From Apostichopus japonicus (taxonomy: Eukaryota; Echinodermata; Holothuroidea; Aspidochirotida; Stichopodidae), in contig NC_092583.1 of assembly GCF_037975245.1 (NCBI RefSeq), positions 17,816,764 to 17,880,763 on the forward strand: a DNA stretch of 64,000 bases, read 5' to 3'. The notes beneath the pieces were generated by a model, which was not told where the DNA came from, did not search any database, and worked only from the letters and a program-made list of their open reading frames with translations. Position 1 is the first letter of the stretch, and every line of letters starts with the position of its first letter. The position numbers and the translations under genes were made by a program. This document shows positions 8,701 to 59,881 of the stretch, piece by piece.

Positions 8701-11700
8701 TTTAAATCACACACAAATTAAGTCAAGCTAATTTTGCTAATAGTTTCCGTCATAACGATATTTTTAATATATGAAAATGTATTGAACATTTTCTCCAGCA
8801 TATATAATAATAATATTAATAATGGGGTTTCATTCTTATATTTAATTATTCTAGGTTTGCCAGTAGTCCCTCCAATCAGCCACTGACGGTAGCTAACCTA
8901 CAAGGACAATATTCCAGGTATGGGTAGTGCTTCTTCTTTCCTTCTCACATCAGTGATCATTTAATTGACTCACAGATGATGAGTTGAGTAGAAAGTAAGG
9001 CATTGTATGGTGACACTTATTGTATTCAGGTTTGCTTGAAATGTAAAATATATCAAATTTTAAATTTGATCTGAAATTTATACCTATTGAGCTTCTTTCC
9101 CGTTGTAAGATGATACAATGTCAGTTTTAGGTTGATGCCCTACCAATCTTACTTTTCAAGTCCAGGTTTAATTTCTGATATCCAGATATTCTTAAATTTC
9201 AGTTGGTGAAAGAATGACACACATCTGTTTGGGGTCATTGAATTGGAACTTTGCCAAAACCAAGACCCCCTAACCCTCGTCTTGGCTTCATTGTGATCTG
9301 ATGGTTGTTAACAAAATCATTATAAACATTAGTAACATAAATGTGTTTATAGTACAATATTTTGATGTTCATCATCTTCAGGCCAGTTGATTCAAGTAAA
9401 CCCTCAGGAAGTACCGAGAGACCACCACCAAGTATAAGCAGTGTAAATCAATCTGTGATCACAACTCCAGCAAATGCATCCATCAATCCTCCTTCACAAA
9501 TAATGAGTGCTCCAGTAAGACCAGTTGTGGCCTCCACTGATAGGCTTGGACAGTCACATGATTCCAGTAATGGTGAGGCTGTATCTGTCAGTTCCAGCCC
9601 CGGAGCAGTGCAGATGACAACTAACAACAACAATGGCAATACTGTAACTCCTTGTAAAGTGCTAACCCTACCTTGGAGGTGAGAAATAACATTACAGAAT
9701 ATTAGTCAAGTTTTTGCCATAAAGATATTAATATATGAATTGTTGCCAGATGGACATAATCTCAATTGAGAGAAGATACTGATGTTTGGCAACCTTATTT
9801 GTTTCTTCATGCATTCTTCTGTTTGTCCACCAATTGCATTGAGTTTGATGAGTATGTACATAATCCTGAGTATTTCGAGTATGGGTGTGATCCTGAGTTT
9901 ATTGGGTATATACGTGATCCTGTAAAGGACTCATAAACCAAATGACCTGATATGTAGGGGCTGTCATGTCACAACTCTGTCTATAAAGGGACTCATAGAC
10001 CATATGGCCTGATATGTAGGGGCTGTCATGTCACAACTCTGTCTATAAAGGGACTCATAGACCATATGACCTGATATGTAGGGGCTGTCATGTCACAACT
10101 CTGTCTATAAAGGGACTCATAGACCATATGACCTGATATGTAGGGGCTGTCATGTCACAACTCTGTCTATAAAGGGACTCATAGACCATATGGCCTGATA
10201 TGTAGGGGCTGTCATGTCACAACTCTGTCTATAAAGGGACTCATAGACCATATGGCCTGATATGTAGGGGCTGTCATGTCACAACTCTGTCTATAAAGGG
10301 ACTCATAGACCATATGGCCTATGCTATTGCTATATCTGATGGATGTCTTGCAGTCAAATGTTTCTATGTTAGATAAGATTGGACATTAAAGCCTCAGTAT
10401 TAGGTGGATGACCTGCAGTCAAATGTTTATGTGTTTACTGGACAGTATTGACTATAATATGCTTATTGGACAATATTGACTATATTATGCTTAAAGTCAT
10501 CCTGATTAAGAATCATTAAGTCATTTGCATATATTAATATCCTAGAGTTGGATATAATTTGTTTTGCTGTTCTCCTCTACAGCTGTGCTCCTGGATTATA
10601 CACAGTCATCCCTTCACCTATTGTACAACCCAATGATACTCAAAAGAACAACCAACCAGCAATCGGGTAGGTAGTTAACATGTCTGACCCATATTATGGT
10701 TGCACTCTGAATTATTATGGTTTTCAATAGTGCATACTGAAAGTTATTGCTGTGGTATTTCTTGCAGACACCATGAAATATTTGACCAAATAAAACATTA
10801 AGTACTGAGTGGTATGACTGACACATTAGGTACCGAGTGGCATGACTGACACATTCAGTACTGAGTGGTATGACTGACACATTGAGCACTGAGTGGTATG
10901 ACTGACACATTGAGCCCTGAGTGGTATGACTGACACATTGAGCACTGAGTGGTATGACTGACACATTGAGTACTGAGTGGTATGACTGATACATTGAGTA
11001 CTGAGTGGTATGACTGACACATTGAGCCCTGAGTGGTATGACTGACACATTGAGCACTGAGTGGTATGACTGACACATTGAGCCCTGAGTGGTATGACTG
11101 ACACATTGAGCACTGAGTGGTATGACTGACACATTGAGTACTGAGTGGTATGACTGATACATTAAGTACTGAGTGGTATGACTGACACATTGAGCCCTGA
11201 GTGGTATGACTGACACATTGAGCACTGAGTGGTATGACTGATACATTGAGTACTGAGTGGTATGACTGACACATTGAGCCCTGAGTGGTATGACTGACAC
11301 ATTGAGCACTGAGTGGTATGACTGACACATTGAGCCCTGAGTGGTATGACTGACACATTGAGCACTGAGTGGTATGACTGACACATTGAGTACTGAGTGG
11401 TATGACTGATACATTGAGTACTGAGTGGTATGACTGACACATTGAGCCCTGAGTGGTATGACTGACACATTGAGCTCTGTGTGGTATGACTGACACATTG
11501 AGAACTGAGTGGTATGACTTGCACATTGAGTACTGAGTGGTATGACTGACACATTGAGTATTGAGTGGTATGACTGACACATTGAGTACTGAGTGGTATG
11601 ACTGACACATTGAGTACTGAGTGGTATGACTGACACATTGAGTACTGAGTGGTATGACTGACACATTCAGTACTGAGTGGTATGACTGACACATTGAGTA

Positions 11701-14700
11701 CTGAGTGGTATGACTGATACATTGAGTACTGAGTGGTATGACTGACACATTGAGCCCTGAGTGGTATGACTGACACATTGAGCACTGAGTGGTATGACTG
11801 ACACATTGAGCCCTGAGTGGTATGACTGACACATTGAGCACTGAGTGGTATGACTGACACATTGAGTACTGAGTGGTATGACTGATACATTGAGTACTGA
11901 GTGGTATGACTGACACATTGAGCCCTGAGTGGTATGACTGACACATTGAGCCCTGAGTGGTATGACTGACACATTGAGCACTGAGTGGTATGACTGGCAC
12001 ATTGAGTACTGAGTGGTATGACTGACACATTGAGTACTGAGTGGTATGACTGACACATTGAGTACTGAGTGGTATAACTGACACATTGAGTACTGAGTGG
12101 TATGACTGGCACATTGAGTACTGAGTGGTATGACTGACACATTCAGTACTGAGTGGTATGACTGACACATTCAGTACTGAGTGGTATGACTGACACATTC
12201 AGTACTGAGTGGTATGACTGACACATTGAGTACTGAGTGGTATGACTGATACATTAAGTACTGAGTGGTATGGTTGATGAGCAGGGTTTTACAATCTCTC
12301 TGTTGGAAATTTACTGAGAATAGCTTACTAAAGCTAATTACTTGAAAATTGAAAAATATTGTTTTGGGAAAATATTATCCAAATTTGAGCAAGTCCCGAA
12401 AAATGTATTCCAAACCTGTTTTCAAGGTATAAATAATTATTAGGTATGCCACATGTCAGGTAGTACATAATAAACAGTTTCCTTCTGTGGAATTCATGTT
12501 AAAAACACATTCATTCTTTGATATCAGTCAACCATTGACTACAAACATTACTAGGCACTCTCCTATCTTCTTCAATATTTTGAAATCATCTGTTGACACA
12601 TTTACAGGTGGAGTTTATTCCAACTGTCAATAGGACTCGGTCTTCTTACCAAGACTGGATCTATCAGGAGTATGACCTTGTAGTCCACATAACCAATCCA
12701 AAACAATTATGATTTGTTTTTTTGTTTCTTTCCTGTTTAATGTTCCTCCTTTTATATTTCACACAAGATTTGCATCTCTTTGCCAATATGATACTGTGAG
12801 TGGTAACTGTTGTTGTTCACTGTTTGCAACCTATATGCCCATTGTATGTCAGTCAGTCAGTCAGTCAGTCAGGGGTTTTCAGTCAGTCACTCAATTTTTC
12901 AGTAAATTGTGTCATTGATAAAAAAAATGATATTCACCAAAAGGCTGGTCTAAGCTACTCACAATAGTTGTTCTTTCAACATTATCTGGTACTATAGTAT
13001 GCTGTTAATGGTAGGCACTTCAAACAATGTTTCTATTTTCATGTTTAATATTTAGATCACAGAGCGATCCCACCAAGCAGACATCCTGCCATGGCCCAAT
13101 ACTCCTCCAGAACACCTACACTCACAAGTTAACTCCTGAATTAAAGAGAAAGGTATTCCTTGCAAAAATGGCCAAATTAAAGCCAAAAGAAGGATTAAAG
13201 GTATCACCAACTGAAGTCCAGAGAAAGGCATATCTTATAAAGTTAGGTGGATCAAAGAAAAAGAAGGATTTAAAATCCAAACAGGGTTTAACAAAGAATG
13301 CCAGAAAAGCAGTAAACATTAGAGCTGAACCAAGCACTAAAGGTCAACCCAAGAAGACTTTTGCCAGACCAGCCCAGAATAGGATTCGAAAAACCCCAAA
13401 GGAGAGAAAGGAAACACCACCACTTGAGAGGCCTTACAGGATTTACAATTTGAGAGAGATACAGAGGTTAGAAGGTTTCACTAAAGGACCAAGATTGAAG
13501 AAGGAAGGGTAAGCACTAATGAAAGGTTAACAATTGATTGAGGCTTCTTTCAAGCAGCTGTAAGGCAACTGGTTGCATTTCTATTGTATACCCTTGAGCA
13601 CAGCATATACAATTAACTAGTTACATTAATGTTGCAAGAGGATTTATCATTCCTTGGGAAGCCTGTTACTCTTCTTTGCTATAAACATTGAACATGATCT
13701 AATATAGCTATTACTTCACTTTGAAAGTAGATGTAATGAAGCATAATCTACTTTTTGTGTAAATAGTATTTTTAGTTCAAGTCAAGATTAGTTGTAAACT
13801 TTTTGTATTTTTATATTTTATATATTGATGAACTAGTTACATCATCAGTACACTTCAGTACATCATCAGTACACTTCAGTACATCATGATTAAACAGCAA
13901 GTCAGCAGTGTCTACTTGGTGTGCTTCCATGCCCTTTAAGAGGAAATTGAGATAATATGCCATAACACATTGAACTATTTTATATTGCCGATATTAGTGG
14001 CCAATTTTCATATGTCACTCACTTTTCAAGCTACTTCAAGCTACTTTCAATCTCCTTGAATTGATAGGGATGATCTCAAGAGCAAACATATCAACACTAC
14101 AAAAGCTAAAACTGTTTATTGTTTCCTCCGCAGGGACTCGGTGGCATGGAGAGCAATGGTGAAGACTTACCAATGTAAGCTTTGCAATTATAATACAACG
14201 TCCCCTCGTTCCATATGCCATCACCTGATCAAAAAACACAAGAAGGTTGTTGGTCCACTGTATGATACACTTTCTAATGAGAAGCTGCCCAATTCACAAT
14301 CAGTTTTGCTTGATTTTGTTCTGGGAAATGATGTAACTTTTACTACAGGTTTGACTGATGAGGATGAGAAGAAACAAGCAAATGAAGTTGCTGTAAGCAA
14401 AAGTTCTGCCTCAGAATTTGCTGGTAAGGAAAATGAATCAGAAAGTCTAAGTGGGACAAAAACTATTCCTATGGAAATAGAAAGTGTACCATGTACTCAA
14501 GCAACCAATCACAATCAAGTTAACAGCACAGCTGAAGCGTATTCAAAACAAGGCTGTGTGGAGCAACCTAATTGGTCTGATTCACATTCTAACAGTGTTG
14601 ACATGCAGTTAGCCAGTCAAGTGCCACTAGACATTCAACAACTCAATCAGAAGGAAGCAGACAGCTCCTCTGATATGCAAACAACCAATCAGAAGCTTCC

Positions 14701-15580
14701 AGACAGTTTCCTTGATATGCAAGCAACCAATCAGAAGCTTATAGACGGTGTTCCTGTTACCAAACCAACCAATCTGAAACAACCAGAAAGTGCCTCTGCT
14801 ACCCAAACAACCAATGAGATCGACAGTGTTGGTAATATCTCAATAACAATTCCTCCATCTGATGTCAATACTACCAACCAGGAGTTACAAATCAAAAAGG
14901 TCCAAAGTGAAAAACAGATTGATAAAGAAATGGACAACAACATTTCACAAGAGAGTCTTTTCCTAGAAACTAACACTTTATTACCTGTTATTAGAAAATA
15001 CACATATGTTACCATTAAATGTCCAAAATGCAATTTGAAAGTGGGAATGTTCAAACTATCCGGTCGGCACAGGTGTGAAAGGACTAGCAAAGATATACTA
15101 TGTGAAGACTGTGGCATAGTGACCTCACTCACCACTTATCGCCGACATTACCAGATAGTACATTGCAAGAGTAAACCAGTCAAAAAAGTCAAATGTTCTC
15201 TTTGCGAAAAGGAAGTTTTTGAGAAGACTATGAGAAAGCACATGACAAGACATCACAGTGGTAAAAACTGGCAGGTGAAATGTCCTATATGTGGTAAGCA
15301 ACTAGCATCCTCCCATCAGCTCCGTAAACATGAAGCAATCCATCGAGCTGAACTGCCACACAAATGTAACATCTGCTACCGTAGTTTTGCCCAGCGGACA
15401 AACATGACTAACCACATGAGGCAGCACACCGGTGAACAACCATATAAATGTGATCACTGCTCCAAGTGTTTCACACACAAAGTCAGTTTGAAAACTCATC
15501 TCAAAAAGTACCATGGCATTGACCTTTGGAAAGAAGGTCACACAGGAGGTGGTAGACCAAAAAAGACCAAAAAGGATTAA
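5733..15580 (+). CDS. C2H2 zinc-finger protein A, eight coding exons, 1199 residues
   Basis: Exons are 5733-5779, 6031-6183, 7138-8193, 8855-8917, 9382-9678, 10583-10666, 13056-13508 and 14134-15580. All have GT-AG borders and all seven introns are phase 2; the sum is exactly 1200 codons including stop. The start ATG has G at -3 and +4. Exon 3 encodes a Ser/Thr/Val-rich, probably disordered segment. Exon 7 is very basic (Lys/Arg). The last exon opens with one C2H2 finger at about residues 732-753, then a TNQ-rich linker, a C-x2-C...H-x-C knuckle near 1014-1032, and about five C2H2 fingers to 1180. One linker is the classical HTGEQPY. It ends with a basic, AT-hook-like GGGRPKKTKK. This architecture implies a nuclear DNA-binding regulator; the target is unknown. 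Its last exon is paralogous to the gene at 28543-32539. The frame stays open upstream of the ATG to a weak acceptor-like site at 5644, so an upstream exon is not excluded. Confidence 0.85.
8250..8560. repeat. Degenerate short repeat 'gatcattcaattgattgtgaaccc' in intron 3
   Basis: Variants of a 24-bp phrase (gatcattc, caattgatt, tgtgaaccc) recur six or seven times with 40-55 bp spacing. The copies are too diverged for a fixed unit. It looks like an old decayed minisatellite in the intron between exons 3 and 4 of zinc-finger gene A. Confidence 0.5.
9927..10320. repeat. 62-bp tandem repeat, about 6 copies (intron 5 of zinc-finger gene A)
   Basis: The unit begins ggactcatagaccatatggc and ends in 'ctgtctataaag'. 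Copies are nearly identical apart from 'atgacc'/'atggcc' variation, suggesting recent expansion or homogenisation. Confidence 0.95.
10801..12271. repeat. 28-bp minisatellite, about 52 copies, with higher-order structure (intron 6 of zinc-finger gene A)
   Basis: The unit is built on 'gtggtatgactgacacattg' followed by ag(TAC/CAC/CCC)tga. The variable triplet changes between units, and a rarer unit has 'gactgatacatt'. The rare units sit at 10988, 11156, 11240, 11408, 11716 and 11884. Three of the gaps are exactly 168 bp (6 units), so a six-unit higher-order block has been copied. The minus strand lacks stops in all frames, which gives long but artefactual open frames of up to 447 codons. Confidence 0.97.
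13840..13888. repeat. 21-bp direct repeat, about 2.5 copies (intron 7)
   Basis: The phrase 'acatcatcagtacacttcagt' is repeated back to back in the last intron of zinc-finger gene A. Confidence 0.7.
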
Positions 15581-22900: not shown

Positions 22901-23612
22901 GGGTTTCAAGGAGGGATCAGACCCCTGTACTGTGTACAAGAGACTGTAAGTATTGACTACTTCTCTTTTGATGAACTTTGAACTGTGAATATGGGGATAT
23001 GCTGTAGAGAAAGAACAAAAATATATCACTGCTTGGCATAAAAACAATTCATGAGATGATTAAAGTCAGCTGGTTATTATTAGTTTGACTGCAAATGTTT
23101 AATTTGTTATCATAATATCATTTCGCCACAAACTAGTTAATTGTACATGTATTTAAGTGAGTATATAATCAATATGTTCCAAAGTATTAACATACTCAAT
23201 TATCAATTCATCATTTTGCATAAAATTACTACTTATTTAAGTCAACATTCTAACCTTTCAATAGCATCTCCATACTCATATGATAGTATTTCATAACAAA
23301 TTGCAGAAAAGACAATGTTCATGACTCATTTAACTTACATTTTTCTAACAAATGATGTACTTGTTTAATTTCTGCAAGCATGATATTGGAAGAGCTCCAG
23401 GCGATGGTTTTGATTTGCAGTATCTCCTGAAAGTTTGAGATCATGGCATCTGTTAACTTAATGAAGTCTGCATCTGAAGGAGAACATTGGCCAACATTTG
23501 GTTGCTGGGAGGGGTAAGTCAATGTCCTAATCAACATCAAAGTTACCAAGACAATGAGTCCCACAAAGAAAACCTTTGACAGATAGCTGAATATCCCTGT
23601 CATTCTGCACAT
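16987..23612 (-). CDS. PM20D1: PM20D1-type M20 metallopeptidase (N-fatty-acyl-amino-acid synthase/hydrolase), 513 residues
   Basis: Eleven coding exons, read right to left: 23612-23339, 23001-22769, 22235-22149, 21631-21498, 21125-21003, 20390-20315, 19831-19770, 19063-18985, 18848-18777, 18159-17988, 17216-16987. Phases agree throughout and sum to 514 codons with stop; the human protein is about 502 residues. M20 hallmarks are present: metal ligand and HxD in [10 protein letters not shown], bridging Asp in [10 protein letters not shown], catalytic and metal Glu in GLGHDEE, a metal Asp in FLLDEG, GHSS of the lid domain, and the C-terminal His in RFHGINE. Residues 5-28 form a hydrophobic segment (signal anchor or signal peptide), placing the enzyme in the secretory route. 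The family reversibly condenses fatty acids with amino acids and hydrolyses the products. An acceptor (cacag) at 23620 just before the ATG suggests a further 5' UTR exon. Two exon borders carry local duplications (22222-22408 and 23591-23750). Confidence 0.95.
17313..17442. repeat. 24-bp tandem repeat, about 5 copies (last intron of PM20D1)
   Basis: The unit is 'gggagggtcacggctaccgt' plus 'gaca'. It is GC-rich compared with its surroundings and lies between the last two coding exons of PM20D1. Confidence 0.9.
21755..22085. repeat. Tandem repeat of about 33-37 bp, roughly 9 copies (PM20D1 intron)
   Basis: The phrase 'atttcaaccaattcacatat' recurs with a variable AT-rich spacer (atatgtaatac, acataggtgatac, ttatatgtgatac). 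It ends about 60 bp before the exon at 22149-22235. Confidence 0.9.
22222..22408. repeat. 91-bp tandem duplication spanning a PM20D1 splice acceptor
   Basis: gcctccatgataccctactg begins at 22222 and again at 22313, and the downstream sequence matches for the whole 91 bp with very few differences. Copy 1 contains the first 14 bases of coding exon 22149-22235 and its acceptor. Copy 2 therefore carries a second complete acceptor and exon stub 91 bp upstream in the transcript. Confidence 0.95.
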
Positions 23613-23750
23613 TAAGAACCTGTGAATGAAAATAGTTAAATATAAACATCAATAGCTTACATGAATTGCATATATCCCTGTCAGCCTGTACATTAGAGCC
23701 TGCAAATGAAAATAGTTAAATCTAAATATCAATATCTTACATGAATTGTA
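23591..23750. repeat. 81-bp tandem duplication covering the PM20D1 start-codon exon border
   Basis: Plus-strand 'atatccctgtca' occurs at 23591 and 23672, followed by similar sequence including 'tgaatgaaaatagttaaat' / 'aaatgaaaatagttaaat'. On the minus strand both copies hold an acceptor (ttcacag / tttgcag), an ATG and the codons for a short RMTG/RLTG-like stretch. The copies differ at several sites, so this is older than the 91-bp duplication. Confidence 0.85.
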
Positions 23751-27369: not shown

Positions 27370-28140
27370 CATTAAATTACCAGTAATGGCATATAAATTC
27401 TGACTGGTACCTTCAGCAAAGAATTGGCTATATAGGGATCACCACCAGCTAACAGATGGATGATAGCTCAGTTTGTAGAAGCACAGGACATATCAATTAC
27501 CAGTAATATCTTCTGAGTTTTCACTGGTACCTTCAGCAAAGATTTGGCTATATAGGGATCACCACCAGCTAACAGATGGATCATAGCTCAGTTTGTAGAA
27601 GCACAGGACATATCAATTACCAGTAATATCTTCTGTGTTTTCACTGGTACCTTCAGCAAAGATTTGGCTATATAGGGATCACCACCAGCAAACAGATGGA
27701 TCATAGCTCAGTTTGTAGAAGCACAGGACATATCAATTACCAGTAATAGCTTCTGAGTTTTGACTGGTACCTTCAGCAAAGATTTGGCTATATAGGAATC
27801 ACCACCAGCTAACAGATGGATCATAGCTCAGTTTGTAGAAGCACAGGACATATCAATTAACATTAATAGCTTCTGAGTTTTCACTGGTACCTTCAGCAAA
27901 GATTTGGCAATATAGGGATCACAACCAGCTAACAGATGGATCATAGCTCAGTTTGTAGAACCACAGGACATATCAATTACCAGTAAGATCTTCTGAGTTC
28001 TGACTGGTACCTTCAGCAAAGCATTGGCTATATAGGGATCACCACCAGCTAACAGATGGATCCTAGTTCAGTTTGTAGAAGCACAGGACATATGATTCTG
28101 AGGTCATTGGTTCAAATATACATTCTAGCCCTAAATTCTT
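27370..28140. repeat. 120-bp tandem repeat, six copies, containing a tRNA-like (SINE head) segment
   Basis: Period is exactly 120 bp. Each unit contains 'tggatcatagctcagtttgt' 'agaagcacaggacatat', which looks like a Pol III A box within a tRNA-derived head. Only after the last unit does the sequence continue into a B-box-like 'ggtcattggttcaaat' (about 28102-28117). The array thus looks like a tandem amplification of the 5' half of a tRNA-derived SINE plus its flank. Confidence 0.85.
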
Positions 28141-28542: not shown

Positions 28543-31500
28543 TCAATTTCCAACGTCCATATTCTTCTCTTCGTCTGCATCCTTTGGTTTTGGTCTGCCG
28601 CCCCCAGTTTGGCCTTGTTTCCAAAGATCAATTCCATGTTGTTTCTTGAGATGGTTTTTTAAACTGACCTTGTGAGTGAATGCCCTTAGGCAATGATCAC
28701 AGCTGTATGGCTGTTCTCCAGTATGCTGTCGAATGTGGTGATGCATGTTTGATTTCTGAGAGAACCCTCTCTGACAAAAAGGACATTTGAAAGGCAATTC
28801 AACTCTGTGAATGATCTCATGTCTTCTAAGATGCTCCTTGGTGGACATCATCTTACCACACATCCCACATGCAACCTTATGTAGTTCCCTCTCGTGGACA
28901 TAGCGGAAATGTTTGAAGAGAGCTGAGGCAGTCATTTCCTTATTGCAATGCTTACATCTTGCTCTAGCCTTGCCTTTGTTGTGTACTTGCCTCACATGGT
29001 TTCCATACCCATTGTTCCTGTAATACTTTCCACATATTTCACAGAGGGTTACTCCAGTGTTTGCAGCACAGTGGTGTAAATTTGTCAACCTTTGACCTTT
29101 AATTTTAGAATGACATTTATTACAATGCTTGTCCACATGCATCCATCTTCTTATGTAGGTAATAAACTCCTCCATTTCTATCAGTGAAAATTCTGAAAAA
29201 GGCTCATTTTTTGAGAGATTTGTTCCGTTTTTTGTCAATCCCTTGAGAGAGTTCTTTTCTTTCATTTGCCCTCTTGAAACCTCGTCATTCTGGAGTCCTT
29301 CCAATCTGCTTTTAGGAGTTTCACCCAAACTATTCATTTCTTTATCTTTGCCAGTCTGATTGGTTACACCAGTATCCATGACAACCTGACCATCTCCTTG
29401 ATTGGCTGTAGCAATTTCCTCCTCAGTGTTATTGCTTTTACCTTGATTGATGGTGGCTGTTTCACCTAACGCTGGCTCATCACTCCCTTCATGCTTATAA
29501 ACCTGTTCACTGTCTGTAACAGGGTCATTGTAGACTGGCACTACAAAAGTTTCATCAAAATCCTCAACACCTGTCTTTGTCTTGTCTAAGACTGACTTGT
29601 CTTCCTCCGCTGCTGCTGCTGCTAATTTCCCATTTTCTTTTGACTTTGAAGTTTCAACGACAAACTTTAGCAAACTTTCTTCAGATCCAGGAACTGTCTC
29701 TTTGTCTAGATATTCTTGGAGGGGCTCAACTATATCAGGATGGGCAAGCAGAAGGTGATCACAGGCAAAAACAGGAGAGGTTGTCTGAAATTCACAGACC
29801 TTACAGCTGAAAGTGATCTCCATTTCCCTCCAAGATATTGCCCTGTATGGAATGAAGGAAACACAGTAGACTTGAAAGGTACCAAACCTTTACCAGAAAG
29901 CCACATCTACTGCAAGCAACAATCATGAAACTCATGCTTACCATCTTTTCAAGGATTTTACACACTAAACTCTTTTTAACTCAAATGACCTTTGACCTAA
30001 AAAGTTCTTGACCTCAAATAGTATGAACCACATATTGAGTATAATATACAATCAAGATTTCATTCTAAAGTTATCACATGTAGTTTGTTAAGTCTTTAAC
30101 CTTTCATGTCCTTCAAATGTCCTTTGACCTCCCAAGAAATATCACTTAGGCTGGAGCTTGGGCTGAACACCAAACAGCAACAATTTGGCTAATGTTCAAT
30201 TTCATACATTTTAAGACGATAGTTGGGGTGTGGATGGGTGCGTGTGCATAGTAGCACACTTCTGAAAGACAGGACGGTTAATAGTTGCCATTAGTGATGT
30301 GGGTTACTCAAATGGTTACTGCACTGTAGCTGCGTTATGGATTAATGTAATGTTCATTGCTTAAGCATATCTTTTTGGTTGCGGAACACATCTTGACCAG
30401 GAAGAGCAAAATGCTTCCATAGGTCAACAAACTGCTGCTCTTACCACTTTGGAGGATTTCTTGGTTTCTTTACTTTGGGAGGTGTTGAATCATTGGTATC
30501 CCTTTCCTCTTGAAGTGAGTCAGTATTGGTATCACTAACCAGATCAAACTCTTCTTTGAGTCTTGCCTCTTGACCAGGAGATATGTCTTGTATAGTTCCA
30601 CCAGCAGTCATTTCGTCAGCCAATTCATACATTAACGTTACTGCTGGAGTCTCATCAGGTACTAAAGAGAAATGTTTCAAACACAAAGATTTTCTACCAA
30701 AATTTGCAAGAGTAAAGATTTTCAAATCCAAGCCATTCATATATCTTACTAAGAAAGTTCTTTGAAAGTTGCACACAGCTTAACTCAGAAAAGACTACAC
30801 CATGAGTACAAAATCACTAAGGGAGCAATGTCTTCTAAAGCAGGGGAGGGGAGTGGCTAAATTAAGGTGAAGAATTCCAAAGAGGAACAATACTAACATA
30901 CTGCTAAATACAGTGTGTCACTGTATACATGGCAACAGTATACATGGCTATAGCTATACATAGCTATAGAATCACTGGTATAAATTCCACACCAATGAAG
31001 GAGGAAGCAACAAACAATCTGAAAACTCATTCTTGTTTCTAATGCCCACCTTTTGTTTTTTTCCGATCAGTACCTGCTGATTTTTTCTGAGACCTTTTCC
31101 TTTTACGTGTGGACACCATAGTTTTTCTTCTAGGCAGACTGCTCTCTGGAACTGTTTCAACTGTTACTTGGTTTTTATCCCTGTAGAGACAAATTACTGA
31201 GGTATTAATAGGAAGCTTGCATTACTGTATTAATACTTAATATAATATACCAGATGAATAATACTTTATTATAATACCTCAAACTCTGAGAGAAAAGAAT
31301 ATTTAGCCTGAAACAGTCTTCTGTGTTACTTCAGCAACAAGTACCAACAAAAAGTCCAATTTAAACCTAACTTAGAGTGAGGTACTTTGTGTTGAATTGT
31401 ATTTTTATGTCACTGTTACCAAGCCATAATACTCAGGCATAAATCAACATCCCTTAATGTAAATAAAAGATCTGTGTGCTTAAAATACTTTGGCAGCAAC

Positions 31501-42909: not shown

Positions 42910-43475
42910 ATGCATCTCTATGTCATACCTGACTGCTGGCTGGAACCATATAGTCATAGCATGCATATCCAGATCATACCTGACTGCTGGCTGGAACCAT
43001 ATAGTCATAGCATGCATTTCCATGTCATACCTGACTACTGGCTGGAACCATATAGTCATAGCATGCATCTCCATGTCATACCTGACTGCTGGCTGGAACC
43101 ATATAGTCATAGCATGCATATCCAGATCATACCTGACTGCTGGCTGGAACCATATAGTCATAGCATGCATCTCCATGTCATACCTGACTGCTGGCTGGAA
43201 CCATATAGTCATAGCATGCATATCCAGATCATACCTGACTGCTGGCTGGAACCATATAGTCATAGCATGCATCTCCATGTCATACCTGACTGCTGGCTGG
43301 AACCATATAGTCATAGCATGCATCTCCATGTCATACCTGACTGCTGGCTGGAACCATATAGTCATAGCATGCATCTCCATGTCATACCTGACTGCTGGCT
43401 GGAACCATATAGTCATAGCATGCATCTCCATGTCATACCTGACTGCTGGCTGGAACCATATAGTTATTGCCTGAC
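42910..43475. repeat. 51-bp tandem repeat, 11 copies, just downstream of the hyccin stop
   Basis: Unit: 'gtcatacctgactgctggct' 'ggaaccatatagtcatagcatgcat' plus 'ctccat'. A second unit type has 'atccagatcatacc', and the two types partly alternate. The unit length (17 codons) and absence of stops give open frames on both strands, which are by-products. On the - strand the array begins 200 bp after the hyccin stop codon and could be transcribed in the 3' UTR. Confidence 0.95.
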
Positions 43476-46600: not shown

Positions 46601-49600
46601 CTGGTCAGCGATGAAGACTGCATGTACAATATACTTCTGGTCAGCGATGAAGACTGCATGGACAATATACTTCTGGTCAGCGATGAAGACTGCTTGGACA
46701 ATATACTTCTGGTCAGCGATGAAGACTGCATGTACAATATACTTCTGGTCAGCGATGAAGACTGCATGGACAATATACTTCTGGTCAGCGATGAAGACTA
46801 CATGGACAATATACTTCTGGTCAGCGATGAAGACTGCATGTACCATATATTTCTGGTCAGCGATGAAGACTTCATGGACAATATACTTCTGGTCAGCGAT
46901 GAAGACTACATGTACAATATACTTCTGGTCAGCGATGAAGACTGCATGGACAATATACTTCTGGTCAGCGAGGAAGAGGCTACATTAGCTTTGAGTAAGC
47001 AAGCCTGATATGAATGAGCTATCATTACCTGATATTTAATCCCAAACAGAGACCATGGGGATGGGGAGAGGCTGTCATTACCTGATACTTAAGCACAGAG
47101 ACCATGGGAATGGGGTGAGGCTTTAATTACCTGATACTTAAGCACAGAGACCATGGGGATGGGGAGAGGCTGTCATTACCTGATACTTAAGCACAGAGAT
47201 CAAGGGGTTGGGGAAAGGCTTCCATTACCTTATATTTTATCCCCAACAGAGATCACAGGGACATGGATGGGCTTGTCACAAATCCATGCTGTCAGATGTC
47301 ATGTGATTACTGCTATTAATGAGTGCAGTGGTACAAGTGATATATACTGCATGTTTGAAACATTTGATGACTTAAGTAGATGAAGAGCCTAGTGTCAGAT
47401 TCAGAATCCTACCAGATAAGAGATTCAGTATGATACCAGATCATATTTGTGCTAGCCATTTTCCTGTTCTTTTCTCTTCATTAATGATAACTTGGATATT
47501 GAAGTCCTAATGTTGTGTTACTTAAGACTTCAATTCCATTATACAAGGATATAACTTACAACCAAACCCAACATAAACAGAAAGAAGTCTTCAAGTAGGT
47601 GGGTATGAATAACCCATAAATGAAAATGGTACCTTTGCTTGAAGACTGTTCATGTCACAAACCAGCTCTCAATTATCATAAATTAGGACTTTTAATAATA
47701 CAGAGGATGCAAACACACAGCAGATAGCATTGTGCAGACATAGCAATGCAAACAAACCCTACCTCACTGAGGTGGAAGGAAGCAACCATAGAGAACTCTT
47801 AATGAAAAGCAAACTTATTTTCCATCTTTCCAAATTTAGAAGATGAAATACAAAGCACACAGTGAGGGGTAAAAAAGCACTACTGCAAGGTATGGCCGGT
47901 GGGTGGAGAGAGGTGGGGGGCATAGTCACAATAAGAGCATCTTGCAACACAGAGTAGCGTTGACAATATGAGCAGCAAGACCGCATAGCCTCAACAGTAA
48001 GTTAACAGTATGCACAAATATGCAATATTGACAAAGTTTATTACAGAGGAGGAAATGTTCAAGCAATGGGGAGGATGGCCAGAGATGAGAAGTAACTTAC
48101 CAGTAGGCAGAGAATCGGACCATAGAAGGTAGAGTAAAAAAATTATTACAATGTAACATGAAGGTTGTAGTTAACCATTTAAGAAATAACAGATGACATA
48201 AAAAAAATAGTAATAATAAACAAATTACCCTGGAAACTACAATATAAATGAACAGAACAGTTAAGATGTTAAAAGAGCATAATGTATTTCAAATAAAGCT
48301 TATTGTAATTTCAGCTAGAGATTCTGATTTGCTAAAACCAGACAAACCTATAGCAACTCTAGTAAGAGACACTCATTGCTACAACTATTCAATTTTATTG
48401 TGGCTCTGTTGAGTTAAAATTCACCGCTGTAACTCTACGACCTGCATGCAACTCTAAACAGAGACTCAACAGCTATCTCTATACGAAAGTACGGCATGCG
48501 AACCAGAGACACTCACTGCTAACTATATACAAAAGAAGGGCAATGCTAACCAGAGACACTCACTGCTAACTATATACAAAGGAAGGGCAGTGCTAACCAG
48601 AGACACTCACTGCTAACTATATACAAAAGAAGGGCAGTGCTAACCAGAGACACTCACTGCTAACTAACTATATACAAAAGAAGGGCAGTGCTAACCAGAG
48701 ACACTCACTGCTAACTATATACAAAGGAAGGGCAGTGCTAACCAGAGACACTCACTGCTAACTATATACAAAGGAAGGGCAGTGCTAACCAGAGACACTC
48801 ACTGCTAACTATATACAAAAGAAGGGCAGTGCTAACCAGAGACACTCACTGCTAACTAGATACAAAAGAAGGGCGATGCTAACCAGAGACACTCACTGCT
48901 AACTAGATACAAAAAAAGGGCAATGCTAACCAGAGACACTCACTGCTAACTATACAAAAGAAGGGCAATGCTAACCAGAGACACTCACTGCTAACTATAT
49001 ACAAAAGAAGGGCAGTGTTAACCAGAGACACTCACTGCTAACTATATACAAAAGAAGGGCAATGCTAACCAGAGACACTCACTGCTAACTATATACAAAA
49101 GAAGGGCAGTGCTAACCAGAGACACTCACTGCTAACTATATACAAAAGAAGGGCAGTGCTAACCAGAGACACTCACTGCTAACTATATACAAAGGAAGGG
49201 CAGTGCTAACCAGAGACACTCACTGCTAACTATATACAAAAGAAGGGCAGTGCTAACCAGAGACACTCACTGCTAACTAGATACAAAAGAAGGGCGATGC
49301 TAACCAGAGACACTCACTGCTAACTAGATACAAAAAAAGGGCAATGCTAACCAGAGACACTCACTGCTAACTATACAAAAGAAGGGCAATGCTAACCAGA
49401 GACACTCACTGCTAACTATATACAAAAGAAGGGCAGTGTTAACCAGAGACACTCACTGCTAACTATATACAAAAGAAGGGCAATGCTAACCAGAGACACT
49501 CACTGCTAACTATATACAAAAGAAGGGCAATACTAACCAGAGACACTCACTGCTAACTATACAAAAGAAGGGCAATGCTAACCAGAGACACTCACTGCTA

Positions 49601-52600: not shown

Positions 52601-55600
52601 TTGCCATTGGTATATTAAAGGAACTATTTAGTGGCAGTCTATTGGGTATATGAAAACAAATCCATAATTTTTTCATCGCCACAGTCCTAGTCCTAACTAG
52701 TGAATTTTTGAACCTTGCATCAACTTAATCTACTATATTTTGAACAGTGGAGAATGATGAGCGACTGTGACGTCATCGCGGCATTTTGTTTTTGGGGCTG
52801 CAGGGACACGATCATTAGCAAGCTGCACTGTAGAGAGGAAAGTTAATTTCTAAAGGAGTAAAATAGCGATGAAGTTGCAAGTTAGCAATCTTTTGAAGAG
52901 TTTAAAACGTTCAAGAATTCCCTAACTTGGTTTTCTTCATAATATGTTGTTCTGATATTTGTTATTTGAGCAATTTTTTGAATCACAGCCGTATGCAAAG
53001 TCTGTACACATTCCTGTGTATGGTATTAAGGCCAAGCATAGAGTGAGATCAGATCGCTTCTGACCAATAAGCCGCACTGATGTCACGTCTCGACGTAAGT
53101 CAGTGTTGGATTCAAATTTTCTGGCAGGACAGGCCAACAATTCAAGCACTCTATCATGGAACTAAAATTCATCACAGGGCAAGGCTTAGGGCGATATAAA
53201 ACAAAATATGATATGACCGGAAGGACTGGATCCCATTTTTCACTAAACAATTCCTTTAATAATAGATGGCAAAACTCACTCAGAACAAGTCTTGCAGAAA
53301 AACTGAAAACTAATATGATGGTAAAAGCCTATATCACCGTTGAAAAGTCGAAGTAATTCATTCATCACCAAAAACCTGTGAAAAGAAGAAGTAATATAAA
53401 TTAGATAAGCTGTGCATTATATTATATGAATTCAACTGTTTAATAACTAAATTCAGTCAAGTGTATTACCCTCTTCAATTACTATTTATGTCAAAGTGTA
53501 GTTATATTGTGAACCTCTCCAGTTACTACCTAAGGCCTTGTACCAACTGCCGACAATGTTCATTATAATTTTCTAATTTCGCAGTTGGTTGCACTGCAAG
53601 CCACATAGATCACCAGTCTGCCAGATGGGATGTTAATCTCTTTGTGATTCATGCAGCTCTTAACTATCCTTCATTTTTGTTCTTTTTCATCTTTTTCTTC
53701 ATGCTTTAAAAATCCAAAAATAAGGACAAAATCCCACAAAGATGAAGCTTTGTAGTGGCTACATCTAAAACTCACATTTTAGTAGTAAGATGTAAGTTGT
53801 TAAGATAGGTGGTTAATGAAAGTTACTTGGTAGTTTAAACACCATATGTTCATATTGAGCAGTGTTAAGATAGGTGGTTAATGAAAGTTACATGGTAGTT
53901 TAAAACACCATATGTTCATATTGAGCAGTGTTCAGGTAGGTAGTTAATGAAAGTTACATGTTAGTTTTAAACACCATTTGTTCATATTGAGCAGTGTTAA
54001 GATAGGTGGTTAATGGAGATTACATAGTAGTGCAAAGCACCATATGTTCATATTGAGCAGTGTTAAGATAGGTGGTTAATGAAAGTTACATGGTAGTTTA
54101 AAACACGATATGTTCATATTGAGCAGTGTTCAGGTAGGTGGTTAATGAAAGTTACATGGTAGTTTAAAACACCATATGTTCATATTGAGCAGTGTTAAGA
54201 TAGGTGGTTAATGAAAGTTATATGGTAGTTCAAAACACCATATGTTCATATTGAGCAGTGTTAAGATAGGTGGTTAATGGAGGTTGCATGGTAGTTTAAA
54301 ACACCATATACTCATATTGAGCAGTGTTAAGATAGGTGGTTAATGAAAGTTACATGGTAGTTTAAAACACCATATGTTCATACTGAGCAGTGTTAAGATA
54401 GGTGGTTAATGAAAGTTACATGGTAGTTTAAAACACCATATGTTCATACTGAGCAGTGTTAAGATAGGTGGTTAATGAAAGTTACATGGTAGTTTAAAAC
54501 ACCATATGTTCATATTGAGCAGTGTTAAGATAGGTGGTTAAAATGGAGGTTACATGGTAGTGAAAAGCACCATATGTTCATATCGGTCTGCTCAATCTCT
54601 TCTTGGACAACAGTTGTACCAAACATCAACTGGTACACATGCACCTTCCCTGATAAATAGTTATAACTCAAACCCAAAATGTTTGCTCCATTATCACCCA
54701 TCCATTAACAGTTCCTATCAAAATACTTTCTGCTCATGTTTTGAGAGAAAAATTGTTCAAAACCACACTTGAAAGTAGAAAAGGTGGGTAGAACAAAGCC
54801 CCCCCCCCCACCCCACCTCTCCTCCATATTTATCTCATGTCAACTAATATACTATACCTGTTGTGTGCTGTGATTGAGTCTATCTCTGGTAATGGTGCCC
54901 TGGTAACCAGTCATGTAAACTTATATACTAAACCTGTTGTGTGCTGTGATTGAGTCTAGCTCTGGTAATGGTGCCCTGGTTACCAGTCATGTAAACTTAT
55001 ATACTGTACCTGTTGTGTGCTGTGATTGAGTCTAGCTCTGGTAATGGTGCCCTGGTTACCAGTCATGTAAACTTATATACTGTACCTGTTGTGTGCTGTG
55101 ATTGAGTCTAGCTCTGGTAATGGTGCCCTGGTTACCAGTCATGTAACCTTATATACTGTACCTGTTGTGTGCTGTGATTGAGTCTAGCTCTGGTAATGGT
55201 GCCCTGGTTACCAGTCATGTAAACTTATATACTGTACCTGTTGTGTGCTGTGATTGAGTCTAGCTCTGGTAATGGTGTGCTTGTCACCAGTCATGTAAAC
55301 TTATATATTATACCTGTTGTGTGCTGTGATTGAGTCTAGCTCTGGTAATGGTGTGCTTGTTACCAGTCATGTAAACTTATATATTATACCTGTTGCGTGC
55401 TGTGATTGAGCCTAGCTCTGGTAATGGTGCCCTGGTTACCAGTCATGTAAACTTATATATCATACCTGTTGTGTGCTGTGATTGAGCCTAGCTCTGGTAA
55501 TGGTGCCCTGGTTACCAGTCATGTAAACTTATATATTATACCTGTTGTGTGCTGTGATTGAGCCTAGCTCTGGTAATGGTGCCCTGGTTACCAGTCATGT

Positions 55601-58600
55601 AAACTTATATACTATACCTGTTGTGTGCTGTGATTGAGTCTAGCTCTGGTAATGGTGCCCTGGTTACCAGTCATGTAAACTTATATATTATACCTGTTGT
55701 GTGCTGTGATTGAGCCTAGCTCTGGTAATGGTGCCCTGGTTACCAGTCATGTAAACTTATATACTGTACCTGTTGTGTGCTGTGATTGAGCCAAGCTCTG
55801 GTAATGGTGTGCTTGTTACCAGTCATGTTAACTTATATATTATACCTGTTGTGTGCTGTGATTGAGCCTAGCTCTGGTAATGGTGCCCTGGTTACCAGTC
55901 ATGTAAACTTATATATTGTACCTGTTGTGTGCTGTGATTGAGCCTAGCTCTGGTAATGGTGTGCTTGTTACCAGTCATGTAAACTTATATATTATACCTG
56001 TTGTGTGCTGTGATTGAGCCTAGCTCTGGTTATGGTGCCCTGGTTACCAGTCATGTAAACTTATATATTATACCTGTTGTGTGCTGTGATTGAGCCTAGC
56101 TCTGGTAATGGTGCCCTGGTTACCAGTCATGTAAACTTATATACTATACCTGTTGTGTGCTGTGATTGAGTCTAGCTCTGGTAATGATGCCCTGGTTACC
56201 AGTCATGTAAACTTATATACTGTACCTGTTGTGTGCTGTGATTGAGTCTAGCTCTGGTAATGGTGCTCTGGTAACCAGTCTGTGCTCACTTTCTTGGTGG
56301 AGATTCAGATGATCTGATATTGCAAGTTGTATAGATGGCTGACAAAAAGGAAAGAAAGAACATGCTTTAGTAATATTGGAATTGAGATTGACAACTATAG
56401 TCAGCAATTTTCATACATCATCATTATTTTATACTGTTGGGTATTATACACCATAATAGTTCACACACAGAGAGATATATGGAAAGAGCACTGATGCTTT
56501 CAACATTTCAAGACTATGATAAAACCATGTAAGCACAATCATTAATACACTGTAGAATCGGTTTCTTCTTGCTTTACATTTACTTTGCATATATTACACA
56601 TTCACAATATGCTGAAATATGGCCTACAGGATGATAACAAGATTGCAACCATTGTTATCAACGATGTGTGATCCTCTTTCGTTGTTTGTTAATACCCTAC
56701 TTTATTGTTGTAAAAACTCTGAGCAATAATTTAATACATCCCTTCATATCAAACATAGGTCAATCAAAGATGAAATCAAACACCATATCTCCACTCATAA
56801 ATTTGTAAGGCATTGCAAACATGATATTTGAGATCAGAAATGTGTCATCAATTTCTATAGATTCTGTTTCCCTTCCAAATTTGATACAAATGCTAAACTT
56901 GCTGTTTAGCACTCTAGGATGTGAACCCAATGTCTGTCAAACAATAAATTTGGAATTTCTATTTATAATCTGCAATAAAATTGCACTTGTTGTCACATAT
57001 TAAAGGTTTTATTTGCTTCAAAGTGATACTCTAAATCAATGCTAGATTCTCAACTGAGAGTTTCCTTCTATGAAATGTCTTAGCATAAGTTAAAGGTTTA
57101 CTGAGGGTGTAACAAACAGCTAAACTATCACTTAAGGAAGAAGCGTGACAAAATGAGCTTACCTCATGATATATGGAAGGTTTACCTAATGAGGGAATCC
57201 TCACAACCTCTGCTCGTGAGGTACCATCAACTTCTAATGCCGCCTGGTTTATATAACAAGAAGAAAGAACCTTTAAAATGAATGTTGTTAACACTATTAA
57301 CATTAAATGATGTATTAAAGATTATTATGAACCATCTCTTACTTTCTCATCATCAGCTTCTTAAGGCTAGCAACAACAACAACAACATTTTAAACAAAAA
57401 AATAGACTATTAATTATTAACTTTTTTTATTAATAAGAGTTGGCAGACAAGACTAAGACATAAATTCTGTATTCCATTAAATGTGTAAAGTAATCTGTAT
57501 TCATGCTGGTCGGCTAGTACATGTCCTTCTAATAAGGAACAAGGAGTTTATTGATCAAACTCCATCATGCTGGTCTAATAGTACCTGTCCCCTAATAAGA
57601 ACCAAGGAATTTATAAAATGAAGCACATTGGTCAAACTCCTAGCTTCATGGCATATTCCGTTGTTGGTAAGATATTATCAGATTAAAGTTTATTCATTAC
57701 TGAAAGAGGATTTGAGTAAAATAATGGGTATCAGTTAGTCCTTGTTTACATCTGAACAGATAAACTAACAGAGAGTAAAAAAAATTAAACTTACCAAATT
57801 ATATATTCCAAGGAGCAAAGCTTCCATTGGTCCACACTCCTGTAACAAAAGGCAATACAAAGAATAAACTGCTTAACTGATATATGTTCCAAGTTGTGAT
57901 ACAATACAAACCTGTGCAGCTTCTCATTTCAAACATATTTTTGTCCATATCCATAAAGCACTACAATTAGGATATTTATGATAGAAACTAACAAGCTTAG
58001 TGATTCCCTGCTATAATGACATCATTAAACAGTTGCAAACAAGACTTTTTGATCATTACTGACATATAGTAATCAACAAGGTTGTGGTACTCATACAGAT
58101 AAGTACAAAGAGCATCCAGCATAAAATTGCAGTTGTTAGGTGTATAACATTTTCACAAATTTGGCCCCCGTTGATCTCCAATCACCTTTGACTTCCACCT
58201 ACTTCACTAGTGTTACAGTGGGTAGTAAGTGTAGAAATACATAGGAAGCATTAAGGTCAACTCAACTGAACTAGTGTACAGTTTTCAGACTTTGACCTCT
58301 GTTGACACAAATGATCTTTGACCTTCACAGAAAAGGATATGGTTGGTTTCATCAATAAGCAGGATGTACATACCAAGTATGAAGTTCTTTCATCACATAC
58401 TTTTTGAGTTATAGCGTAAACAAGCCAAGGCATAACACACACACACACACGCACACACACACGACATTGTATAGATTCCTTTTGCCTTTGGCATGGAATC
58501 AAAAAAGTACTTTAAATCTTTGTAAACATCCCAACAGGAAGTACTAAAAGGTGAAAACTCATAATAATATCCTGAATATCATATATCCTATAGATAGTAA

Positions 58601-59881
58601 CAGTACAAACTATTTATACACTAACATACTGTATATAAATCATATATAATACAGATAGTATTAGGAGCATGTAAATACTCAGATCATTACACGGTCTGCC
58701 AGTAACCATGATGTTACTGCAACTGCTACAGTAGGCTATACTGTACACCCATAGCCATAACCTCCTCACTGTATTAAACTCCTACCTACAGTTTACTATC
58801 CATAAGGGCTACAGTATGCTGTACACCCATAGCAGATCTACCAACAGCCATAACCCCCTCACTATCCACTATCCCTCACATCCCTTTCCTTCAGACCTAA
58901 TAAGTATTATTTACACTTCCACCAATCCCCATCCCTTTCCTTCAGACCTAAAATGTAGACTCCTATAATAACACTGTCATAAATAAACTGATAAATTCCA
59001 AACATTTTTCTAGGAGTGTTAGCTCAGTGGTTAACCCCGGTGCCTTCCAATCATAAGGTCCCCAGTTCGAGTCACTCCAAGATTAATGTATGTCGTCCAG
59101 TTACAGAGTTGTTGACAATTAACAATTCATAATCATGGACATTAATTATGAATCTAAGAGTCTGACTTCGATCAGCTTGCGGCTTTGATAAGACAATGAA
59201 GCTTCTTCGCGAGTTCCTGCTTGCAGGAGGATCTCAAATACATACAAACATACATACATGTGAACCACGATGATTGTATTCAGTAAAATTGTTTATTTGT
59301 GAAATAATATTTATATGGGTATTAACTAGCATTTATCTAGGATTTTTGTGTTTTCATGTAATATTCACACAGATTGGACTGATACCACAGAACCTAAAAA
59401 ACATAATAAATCCTTGAGGTTAAGAACCACTTGTATAATCCAAGGGAAGAGATTGTTGATTGTTACTACAAAGCTTTGTGCTCCACAAACATGAACAGTG
59501 TTTCCTTTCTAAACTGTCAATGTGTTAGACCTGCTTTACTCCAGAATATTCTATGTCATACCAAGGTAATGTTACACTGGTTTTGCTTGAATATATATAT
59601 ATATATTTATGTTGTTGGTCATCCTTGCTGAGTAACTTTGGTGGACTAAGGTAACATGTTACTATTTGTTGGTACTTAACCTCCCCTGCAATGGTCAAAT
59701 GGTAACAACAACAAAAAACATACCAGATTAGATTATTCAAATGTGTTCTTACCGTCCGAGAAAAGGAACATTTTAGATACTGGAAGATGATAACTGGAAT
59801 AAACTGGAGGGTAAATCTTTGTAAGTCCAATAAACTAGATTTATAGAATTCAAATAATTGACTATACACTGGTGCAAGATG
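43674..59881 (-). CDS. HYCC: Hyccin (FAM126 family), component of the PI4KA plasma-membrane complex; 413 residues found, N-terminus missing
   Basis: Exons, right to left: 59881-59753, 57839-57795, 57243-57163, 56338-56226, 53375-53280, 52063-51914, 51382-51295, 50985-50832, 44059-43674. Phases agree and sum to 414 codons with stop. Matches to hyccin recalled from the family: YSQLFEFYKS...LQRFTLQFIP, PMEALLLGIYNL, RIPSLGKPSIYHE, LPELDSITAHNR, FQFFCKTCSEICKSGFQ, RIPINSEFLTELLQSLYYI, ALEAIHFRAQHEMF and VTNAIK. Hyccin stabilises the PI4KA-TTC7 complex that makes PI4P at the plasma membrane. The last exon encodes a Ser/Asn/Lys-rich, probably disordered tail ending MKENLELNLSSIETSF. The donor at 50832 was chosen because its phase fits the last exon; that junction is the weakest. 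About 50-60 N-terminal residues, with the start codon, were not located. Introns hold six tandem arrays and one MITE. Confidence 0.9.
44340..44950. repeat. 42-bp tandem repeat, about 14 copies (last hyccin intron)
   Basis: Unit: 'ggttgtcttgccaaacacct' 'agggttaccatattttatctaa'. Most units contain TAGGGTTA, a telomere-like octamer. The length is a multiple of three, so it yields an artefactual open frame on the + strand. Confidence 0.95.
46192..46211. repeat. Poly(G) run in the last hyccin intron
   Basis: A near-continuous run of about 18 G. Comparable G or C homopolymers occur near 6752, 18368, 24557, 25313, 26222, 37149 and 52240. Confidence 0.8.
46440..46975. repeat. 36-bp tandem repeat, 15 copies (last hyccin intron)
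   Basis: Unit: 'atgaagactgcatggacaat' 'atacttctggtcagcg', with 'tgtaca'/'tggaca' alternating between units. The unit is 12 codons with no stops in several frames, giving open frames of 192-194 codons on the + strand and 142 on the - strand. It lies inside an intron and is not treated as coding. Confidence 0.95.
47047..47250. repeat. 49-bp tandem repeat, about 4 copies (last hyccin intron)
   Basis: 'cagagaccatgg' markers at 47047, 47096, 47145 and a diverged one at 47194, exactly 49 bp apart. Units also contain 'cattacctgatacttaagca'. Confidence 0.9.
48495..49690. repeat. 45-47-bp tandem repeat, about 25 copies, with a 421-bp higher-order duplication (last hyccin intron)
   Basis: Unit: 'gctaaccagagacactcact' 'gctaactatatacaaaagaagggcagt'. 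A run of distinctive variant units (gggcgatgct, then aactagatac with aaaaaaaggg, then a 45-bp unit with 'aactatacaaaag') occurs twice, marked by gggcgatgct at 48871 and 49292. A nine-unit block has therefore been copied. Confidence 0.95.
52615..53259. mobile_element. TTAA-flanked MITE, family 2, copy 2 (645 bp, inverted to copy 1)
   Basis: It begins TTAAAGGAACTATTTAGTG and ends 'cactaaacaattcctttaa', a 19-bp inverted terminal pair with two mismatches, TTAA at both borders. It aligns throughout with the reverse complement of 36344-36999. It lies in a hyccin intron, with its end only 20 bp from the splice donor of exon 53280-53375. Confidence 0.9.
53795..54590. repeat. 66-67-bp tandem repeat, about 12 copies (hyccin intron)
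   Basis: Unit: 'gtgttaagataggtggttaa' 'tgaaagttacatggtagttt' 'aaaacaccatatgttcatattgagca'. Copies vary at scattered sites (ttcaggtagg, gaggtt, tactgag). Confidence 0.95.
54850..56290. repeat. 76-bp minisatellite, about 19 units, made of a hyccin exon end and its splice donor
   Basis: On the - strand each unit holds about 54 bp matching the 3' end of hyccin exon 56338-56226 (through 'gactcaatcacagcacacaa' 'cag'), then a 5' splice site 'gtatag/gtacag', then about 22 bp of intron ('tatataagtttacatg'). The unit nearest 56226 is the real exon end. Units differ mainly by gcc/gtc, ccctgg/gtgctt and the bases after the donor. All the copies lie in the following intron. Confidence 0.95.
59013..59255 (+). 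mobile_element. tRNA-derived SINE
   Basis: The head 'ggagtgttagctcagtggtt' contains an A box, and 'ggtccccagttcgagtcact' contains a B box (GTTCGAGTC). The ends of the head could pair as an acceptor stem (GGAGTG/CACTCC). It is followed by about 170 bp of unrelated body with 'cttgcaggaggatctcaaat' and a tail of 'cata' repeats. The body and tail make this a SINE rather than a working tRNA gene. Confidence 0.75.

Follow-up and report, generated by a model that had tools for sequence, protein, structure and literature searches.

A tandem ladder of splice donors at a predicted hyccin exon end in Apostichopus japonicus, and the frequency of such arrays at sampled exon boundaries

The hyccin locus and its 76-bp ladder

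The window analysed here, a 64,000 bp stretch of the Apostichopus japonicus genome, carries on its minus strand a gene that sequence comparison identifies as hyccin. An exon at 59881–59753 (beginning HLAPVYSQLFEFYKSS) matches the hyccin/FAM126A chains in PDB at ~3e-8 and also Pfam family PF09790, and it lies three exons upstream of the exon with the ladder (56338–56226); its ends, and those of the upstream neighbour of the ladder exon (57243–57163, ending LEVDGTSRAEVVRIPSLGKPSIYHE; also minus strand), are putative and placed by AG/GT. The ladder exon codes for PSIQLAISDHLNLHQESEHRLVTRAPLPELDSITAHN, ending with SITAHN and the AG of a split Arg codon, and the next exon (53375–53282, 3′ end approximate) begins GTTTTTGGTGATGAATG, with FLVMNELL after the split Arg. 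These two exons are assigned to hyccin from their position and from weak single matches (E 0.53 and 0.10) to what we take to be the human hyccin sequence, where MLTAQNR presumably corresponds to SITAHNR and FEVLTFLL to FLVMNELL. A PDB search with the ladder exon alone returned one non-significant match (E 1.1).

The intron between 56226 and 53375 is ~2.85 kb long, and ~76% of it consists of two minisatellites, as calculated from the spans reported by TRF. One of these (53798–54583, no strand assigned), with 11.9 copies of a 66-bp unit, touches neither exon. The other is reported by TRF at 54835–56280, with a period of 76, 19.0 copies, 95% match and 0% indels, and unit-by-unit alignment resolves it into 19 units on the minus strand (54835–56278), each with 53 nt of exon-end sequence and then 23 nt of intron, starting at the GT donor. 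Unit 0 (56203–56278) is the genuine hyccin exon end with its genuine donor, and units 1–18 (54835–56202) are decoy copies, 92–97% identical to unit 0 in a strictly periodic 1.44-kb repeat; this periodicity and identity together exclude a chance match. The acceptor AG of the intron (53376–53377) is outside the array, ~1.5 kb beyond it. A first-pass annotation of the window had proposed a minisatellite at this exon end, with units made of exon end, donor and intron start and the true donor followed by 18 near-identical ones. The alignment bears this out, including the match of the units to the exon end, on which the annotation had said its proposal would turn; only the exonic part needs correcting, from ~54 to 53 nt. 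When the exon end plus three units was used to search the genome (671,581,487 bases in 35 contigs; match counts from genome searches are lower bounds), at least nine matches were found, and all nine that were listed are inside the hyccin array. In a comparison of columns, units 0 and 18 both have T at position 6, unlike the decoy consensus, and both have G at position 59, but the decoys split 9 to 9 there.

The copy number given here is that of the assembled sequence, and an array of this type could have been collapsed or inflated in assembly. We regard this as extremely improbable, given that the copies carry distinct variants and that the HiFi reads average 14.7 kb. The A. japonicus PacBio HiFi assembly is described, in the available text, as having a mean read length of 14,729, a size of 671.60 Mb in 34 scaffolds, and 23 chromosomes of 18.21–46.02 Mb (PMC10344927). 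Assembly error at the array is unlikely because single HiFi reads would span it, provided that our sequence is that assembly.

CAG/GT is present in all 19 units, and thus in 18 of 18 decoys, which agrees with the ~19 potential 5′ splice sites originally noted. The predicted U1 duplex of the true donor (CAG/GTACAG, 56220–56228, minus strand) has an energy of -9.4 kcal/mol, as do those of the best decoys; the decoys range from -7.1 to -9.4 kcal/mol, with eight of the 18 tying the true donor (the U1 sequence used is the one we take to be correct). Since the true donor is predicted to be no stronger than the decoys, the choice between them would have to depend on position and not on strength. Translation past the true donor gives RYSI followed by an in-frame TAA, so that use of a later donor would truncate hyccin, and would not add repeated peptide as the first-pass annotation supposed.

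These features could be read as those of a functional ladder, in which decoys compete for U1 and divert transcripts to early-stop products, with the array length setting the fraction diverted. The intact CAG/GT of all decoys and the predicted ties in U1 pairing are in keeping with such a role, as is a stop after four codons of read-through, reminiscent of unproductive splicing. However, 17 of the 76 columns vary among the decoys, donor positions +3 to +6 all vary (+4 and +6 being among the most variable columns), and the invariance of CAG/GT is not significant by column count (P 0.27). Comparable arrays also occur at exon ends of unrelated genes at about the chance frequency (see below). We consider a functional ladder very unlikely, and a splicing function, which had been suggested earlier, is not indicated, as the exon-end rate is close to that of random noncoding points and the donor invariance is within chance.

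Recursive (ratchet) splice sites consist of a polypyrimidine tract and AG/GT, and the hyccin units resemble them in that each has CAG/GT. We reject recursive splicing here, as there is no polypyrimidine tract before the AG; the longest pyrimidine run is 3 nt in each of the 19 units, and no acceptor-like site was found in any of them, consistent with the original description of the donors as having no matching acceptors.

Splice-site arrays at other exon boundaries

Besides the hyccin array, the window has 23 minisatellite arrays (TRF score ≥50, units ≥15 bp), which make up ~15% of it. A 2-copy 80-bp repeat at 23591–23748 (minus strand) spans a likely acceptor and exon start beside an M20-peptidase exon; the exon concerned (23322–23648) has no Pfam family match and presumably belongs to the M20-peptidase gene. 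Arrays at 42910–43464 and 47046–47234 contain CAG/GTATG- and CAG/GTAATG-like strings, but no coding exon was seen to enter them. A 120-bp array at 27375–28093 was rejected as a boundary ladder, its unit looking by eye tRNA/SINE-derived and not exonic. A 28-bp minisatellite at 10795–12272 (~53 copies) has several open minus-strand frames of up to 447 aa and is probably no gene. We also note two C2H2 zinc-finger reading frames (14060–15580 and 28543–29889) that run in opposite directions and closely resemble each other at the C-terminal end; they are perhaps an inverted duplication.

We determined how often exon ends carry such arrays in a sample of 160 stretches with 216 exon hits to myosin, kinesin and kinase domains, each with ~300 bp on either side. 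The matches listed for the three families number 70 (myosin), 126 (kinesin) and 134 (kinase), of which 70, 104 and 42 respectively were fetched as exon stretches; 30 further kinase matches were taken as ~3.6-kb loci and serve as a control outside the boundary sample, and the remaining 22 kinesin and 62 kinase matches lie outside the analysis. In this sample of three gene families, where some hit ends may be no true splice junction, 10 of 432 exon ends (95% interval 1.1–4.2%), or 10 of 216 exon hits (95% interval 2.2–8.3%), have a tandem array whose terminal copy spans the boundary. Seven are donor ladders (L032, L057, L087, L146, L161, L162, and L105 at 2610–2827) and three are acceptor ladders (L080, L139, and L105 at 370–687). 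The count excludes the window's hyccin and M20-peptidase arrays and a ladder in one of the control loci (L017), as well as arrays that lie close to a boundary without crossing it (L058, L089, L104, L108, L115, L116, L121, L150), a short repeat of low score in L105 (2229–2264), and repeats internal to L090 and to a second exon of L139. The ten are not fully independent and fall in six gene regions: L032, L057 and L087 each belong to a different exon of a single myosin gene region on contig C4, both L105 arrays are in one kinesin gene, and L161 and L162 are duplicates with 96% identity. Exonic bases inside the array number only 4 in L087 and 7 in L032. The earlier view that minisatellites capturing a splice site are unusual does not hold for this genome at this frequency, and the kind already has a name in amphioxus (see below).

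In L017 (1854–2354), ~97 kb from the window, a kinase exon end is followed by a 31-bp array. Fourteen of its 15 downstream copies keep the GTAAGT donor, and the stop met by read-through in the right frame is the TAA inside GTAAGT. The related locus L018 has no array at the corresponding exon end. L139 (106–314) is a striking instance, in which a kinesin exon is preceded by an acceptor ladder of five tandem 3′ splice sites with a 42-bp unit; each acceptor combines CAG with a pyrimidine tract and a branch-site-like sequence that equals or closely resembles TACTAAC. L161 and L162, on contig C11, encode a kinase (CDK-like by eye) and have in common a ladder of 70-bp units at the exon end, which extends to the edge of the fetched stretch; because the ladder is common to both, it is either older than the duplication or was copied with it.

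Following the decoys through 13 ladders (the ten of the sample, hyccin, L017 and the likely M20-peptidase acceptor), we find that 54 of 57 retain GT or AG, where ~50 are expected from unit identity; in the compound array of L087 one copy only was followed. The three decoys with a lost dinucleotide are in L017, L087 and L105 (2610–2827). Over the 13 ladders there is thus no sign of decoy removal, and no significant sign of decoy retention either, as is also the case for hyccin on its own.

As a null we used random noncoding points in the window and the 30 kinase loci, cut to the geometry of the sample; these points skip known coding stretches, and unrecognised exons may remain among them. In one draw 63 of 3000 points hit an array's terminal copy, giving 9.1 expected of 432, and in a larger draw 137 of 6000, giving 9.9, compared to 10 observed; with at least 10 bp required on either side of the boundary, 8 were observed and 8.6 expected. 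The sampled exon ends show neither attraction nor avoidance of arrays, their rate being close to chance, with the random-point rate resting on few arrays (23 + 26 in 173 kb) and a roughly twofold excess or deficit compatible with the 95% interval.

The choice of null matters for this conclusion. The array rate in the flanks of L031–L190 is 0.0064, as against 0.0163 and 0.0182 in the long controls (the window and the kinase loci, respectively), and multiplied by 432 it predicts only ~2.8, so that on this basis, and contrary to the reading above, the 10 observed are an excess. Such an excess would be expected if splice junctions seed minisatellites, for instance through R-loops or U1-bound nascent RNA, a possibility to which the 10 boundary arrays among 216 exon hits, the clustering of three in one myosin region and two in one kinesin gene, and the presence of the same kind in amphioxus, as described in the available text (PMC3087553), also lend some weight. 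We think that the low flank rate is a bias arising from arrays cut off in the 300-bp flanks, and random points from long sequence were used as the null for that reason. Against geometry-matched points the 10 are what chance provides, and we consider seeding by junctions unlikely.

Exons themselves are avoided. Only 12 of the 216 exon hits are touched by any array, compared to 39.5 in matched random segments (P 2e-7), and an array lies wholly inside an exon hit in 2 instances versus 7.4 expected (P 0.04). Ten of the 12 are the boundary ladders, and the other two are the internal repeats of L090 (a stop-rich, doubtful hit) and of the second exon of L139. Arrays are excluded from exons unless the exon stays whole at the array edge.

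Relation to known systems and a proposed origin

The kind of array found in hyccin is already known from amphioxus, where the name 'mirage' dates from Adh work in 2002, as related in citing papers including PMC3087553. In the available text of two such papers, amphioxus mirages are described in Adh3, the globins BflGb6 and BflGb9, TnC and PGBD5, at either the 5′ or the 3′ boundary, with AG/GT in many of the copies, not in all (PMC3087553, PMC3902484). They are minisatellite-like tandem duplications of an exon-intron boundary (PMC3087553), as is the hyccin array, whose unit spans exon end, donor and intron and whose copies carry splice signals. Allelic and somatic instability is reported in amphioxus. 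Authors also report mRNAs that are undisturbed by mirages for Adh3 and globin (PMC3087553) and for Adh and TnC, with this only suggested for PGBD5 (PMC3902484). The departures are of three types: the host here is an echinoderm and not a cephalochordate; there are 19 units in hyccin, whereas two BflGb6 haplotypes have 6 and 3 (PMC3087553, available text); and a rate over 432 exon ends is compared here with a random-point null. Among the literature matches listed there was no published report of an echinoderm mirage (most subscription journals lie outside the literature covered) and no precedent for a boundary-array rate set against a random-point null. It is the scale, 10 of 432 exon ends, that is new. 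The hyccin copies are also similar to those in intron gain by tandem genomic duplication, where, in the available text, tandem copies contain AG/GT (PMC3443670). Unlike in that process, they sit within an intron and create no new one, and intron gain by AGGT duplication was rejected here, as the donor is in unit 0 but the acceptor is outside the array.

A simple explanation, and one that we consider probable, is that the hyccin ladder is a mirage in which ordinary minisatellite birth chanced on an exon boundary and was tolerated through use of the exon-proximal site. This builds on the anatomy of the array, the in-frame stop, the intact decoys, the near-chance rate at exon ends and the depletion of arrays in exons, all observed directly; from these we infer how the array was born, that the exon-proximal donor is chosen, and what becomes of mis-spliced transcripts. 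In a minisatellite-rich genome, tandem duplication of a short local segment would by chance have covered the exon end and its donor, and the segment would then have amplified. Purifying selection would act on the exon-joined copy alone, with the other 18 drifting in the intron. The duplication would be tolerated since the exon-proximal donor would be the one spliced to the next exon and the downstream donors would be removed with the intron. Any transcript made from a later donor would meet its stop after four codons, and would be either lost or truncated. In classic work with duplicated donors, abundant U1 can reportedly let the intron-proximal copy prevail; this is the opposite of what the explanation requires, and it counts against it.

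Implications for splice-site choice

We suggest, tentatively and with slightly less than even confidence, that several percent of exons in this genome (10 of 216 in the sample) carry mostly intact splice-site ladders that selection neither purges nor preserves. If so, the choice of exon-proximal sites would be so robust that duplicate donors and acceptors are in effect neutral, and thousands of natural splice-site competition experiments would be present in the genome, a figure extrapolated from three gene families. How the spliceosome chooses among equal splice sites is an old question, and it has been studied mainly with engineered duplications. With ladders of 2–19 copies in hyccin, myosin, kinesin and kinase genes, RNA-seq could test the candidate rules of choice, such as first come, proximity to the acceptor, or exon definition. 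Their chance-level frequency is a warning against inferring function from any single ladder. The hyccin ladder is ordinary for this genome, yet it is a good natural test of splice-site choice.
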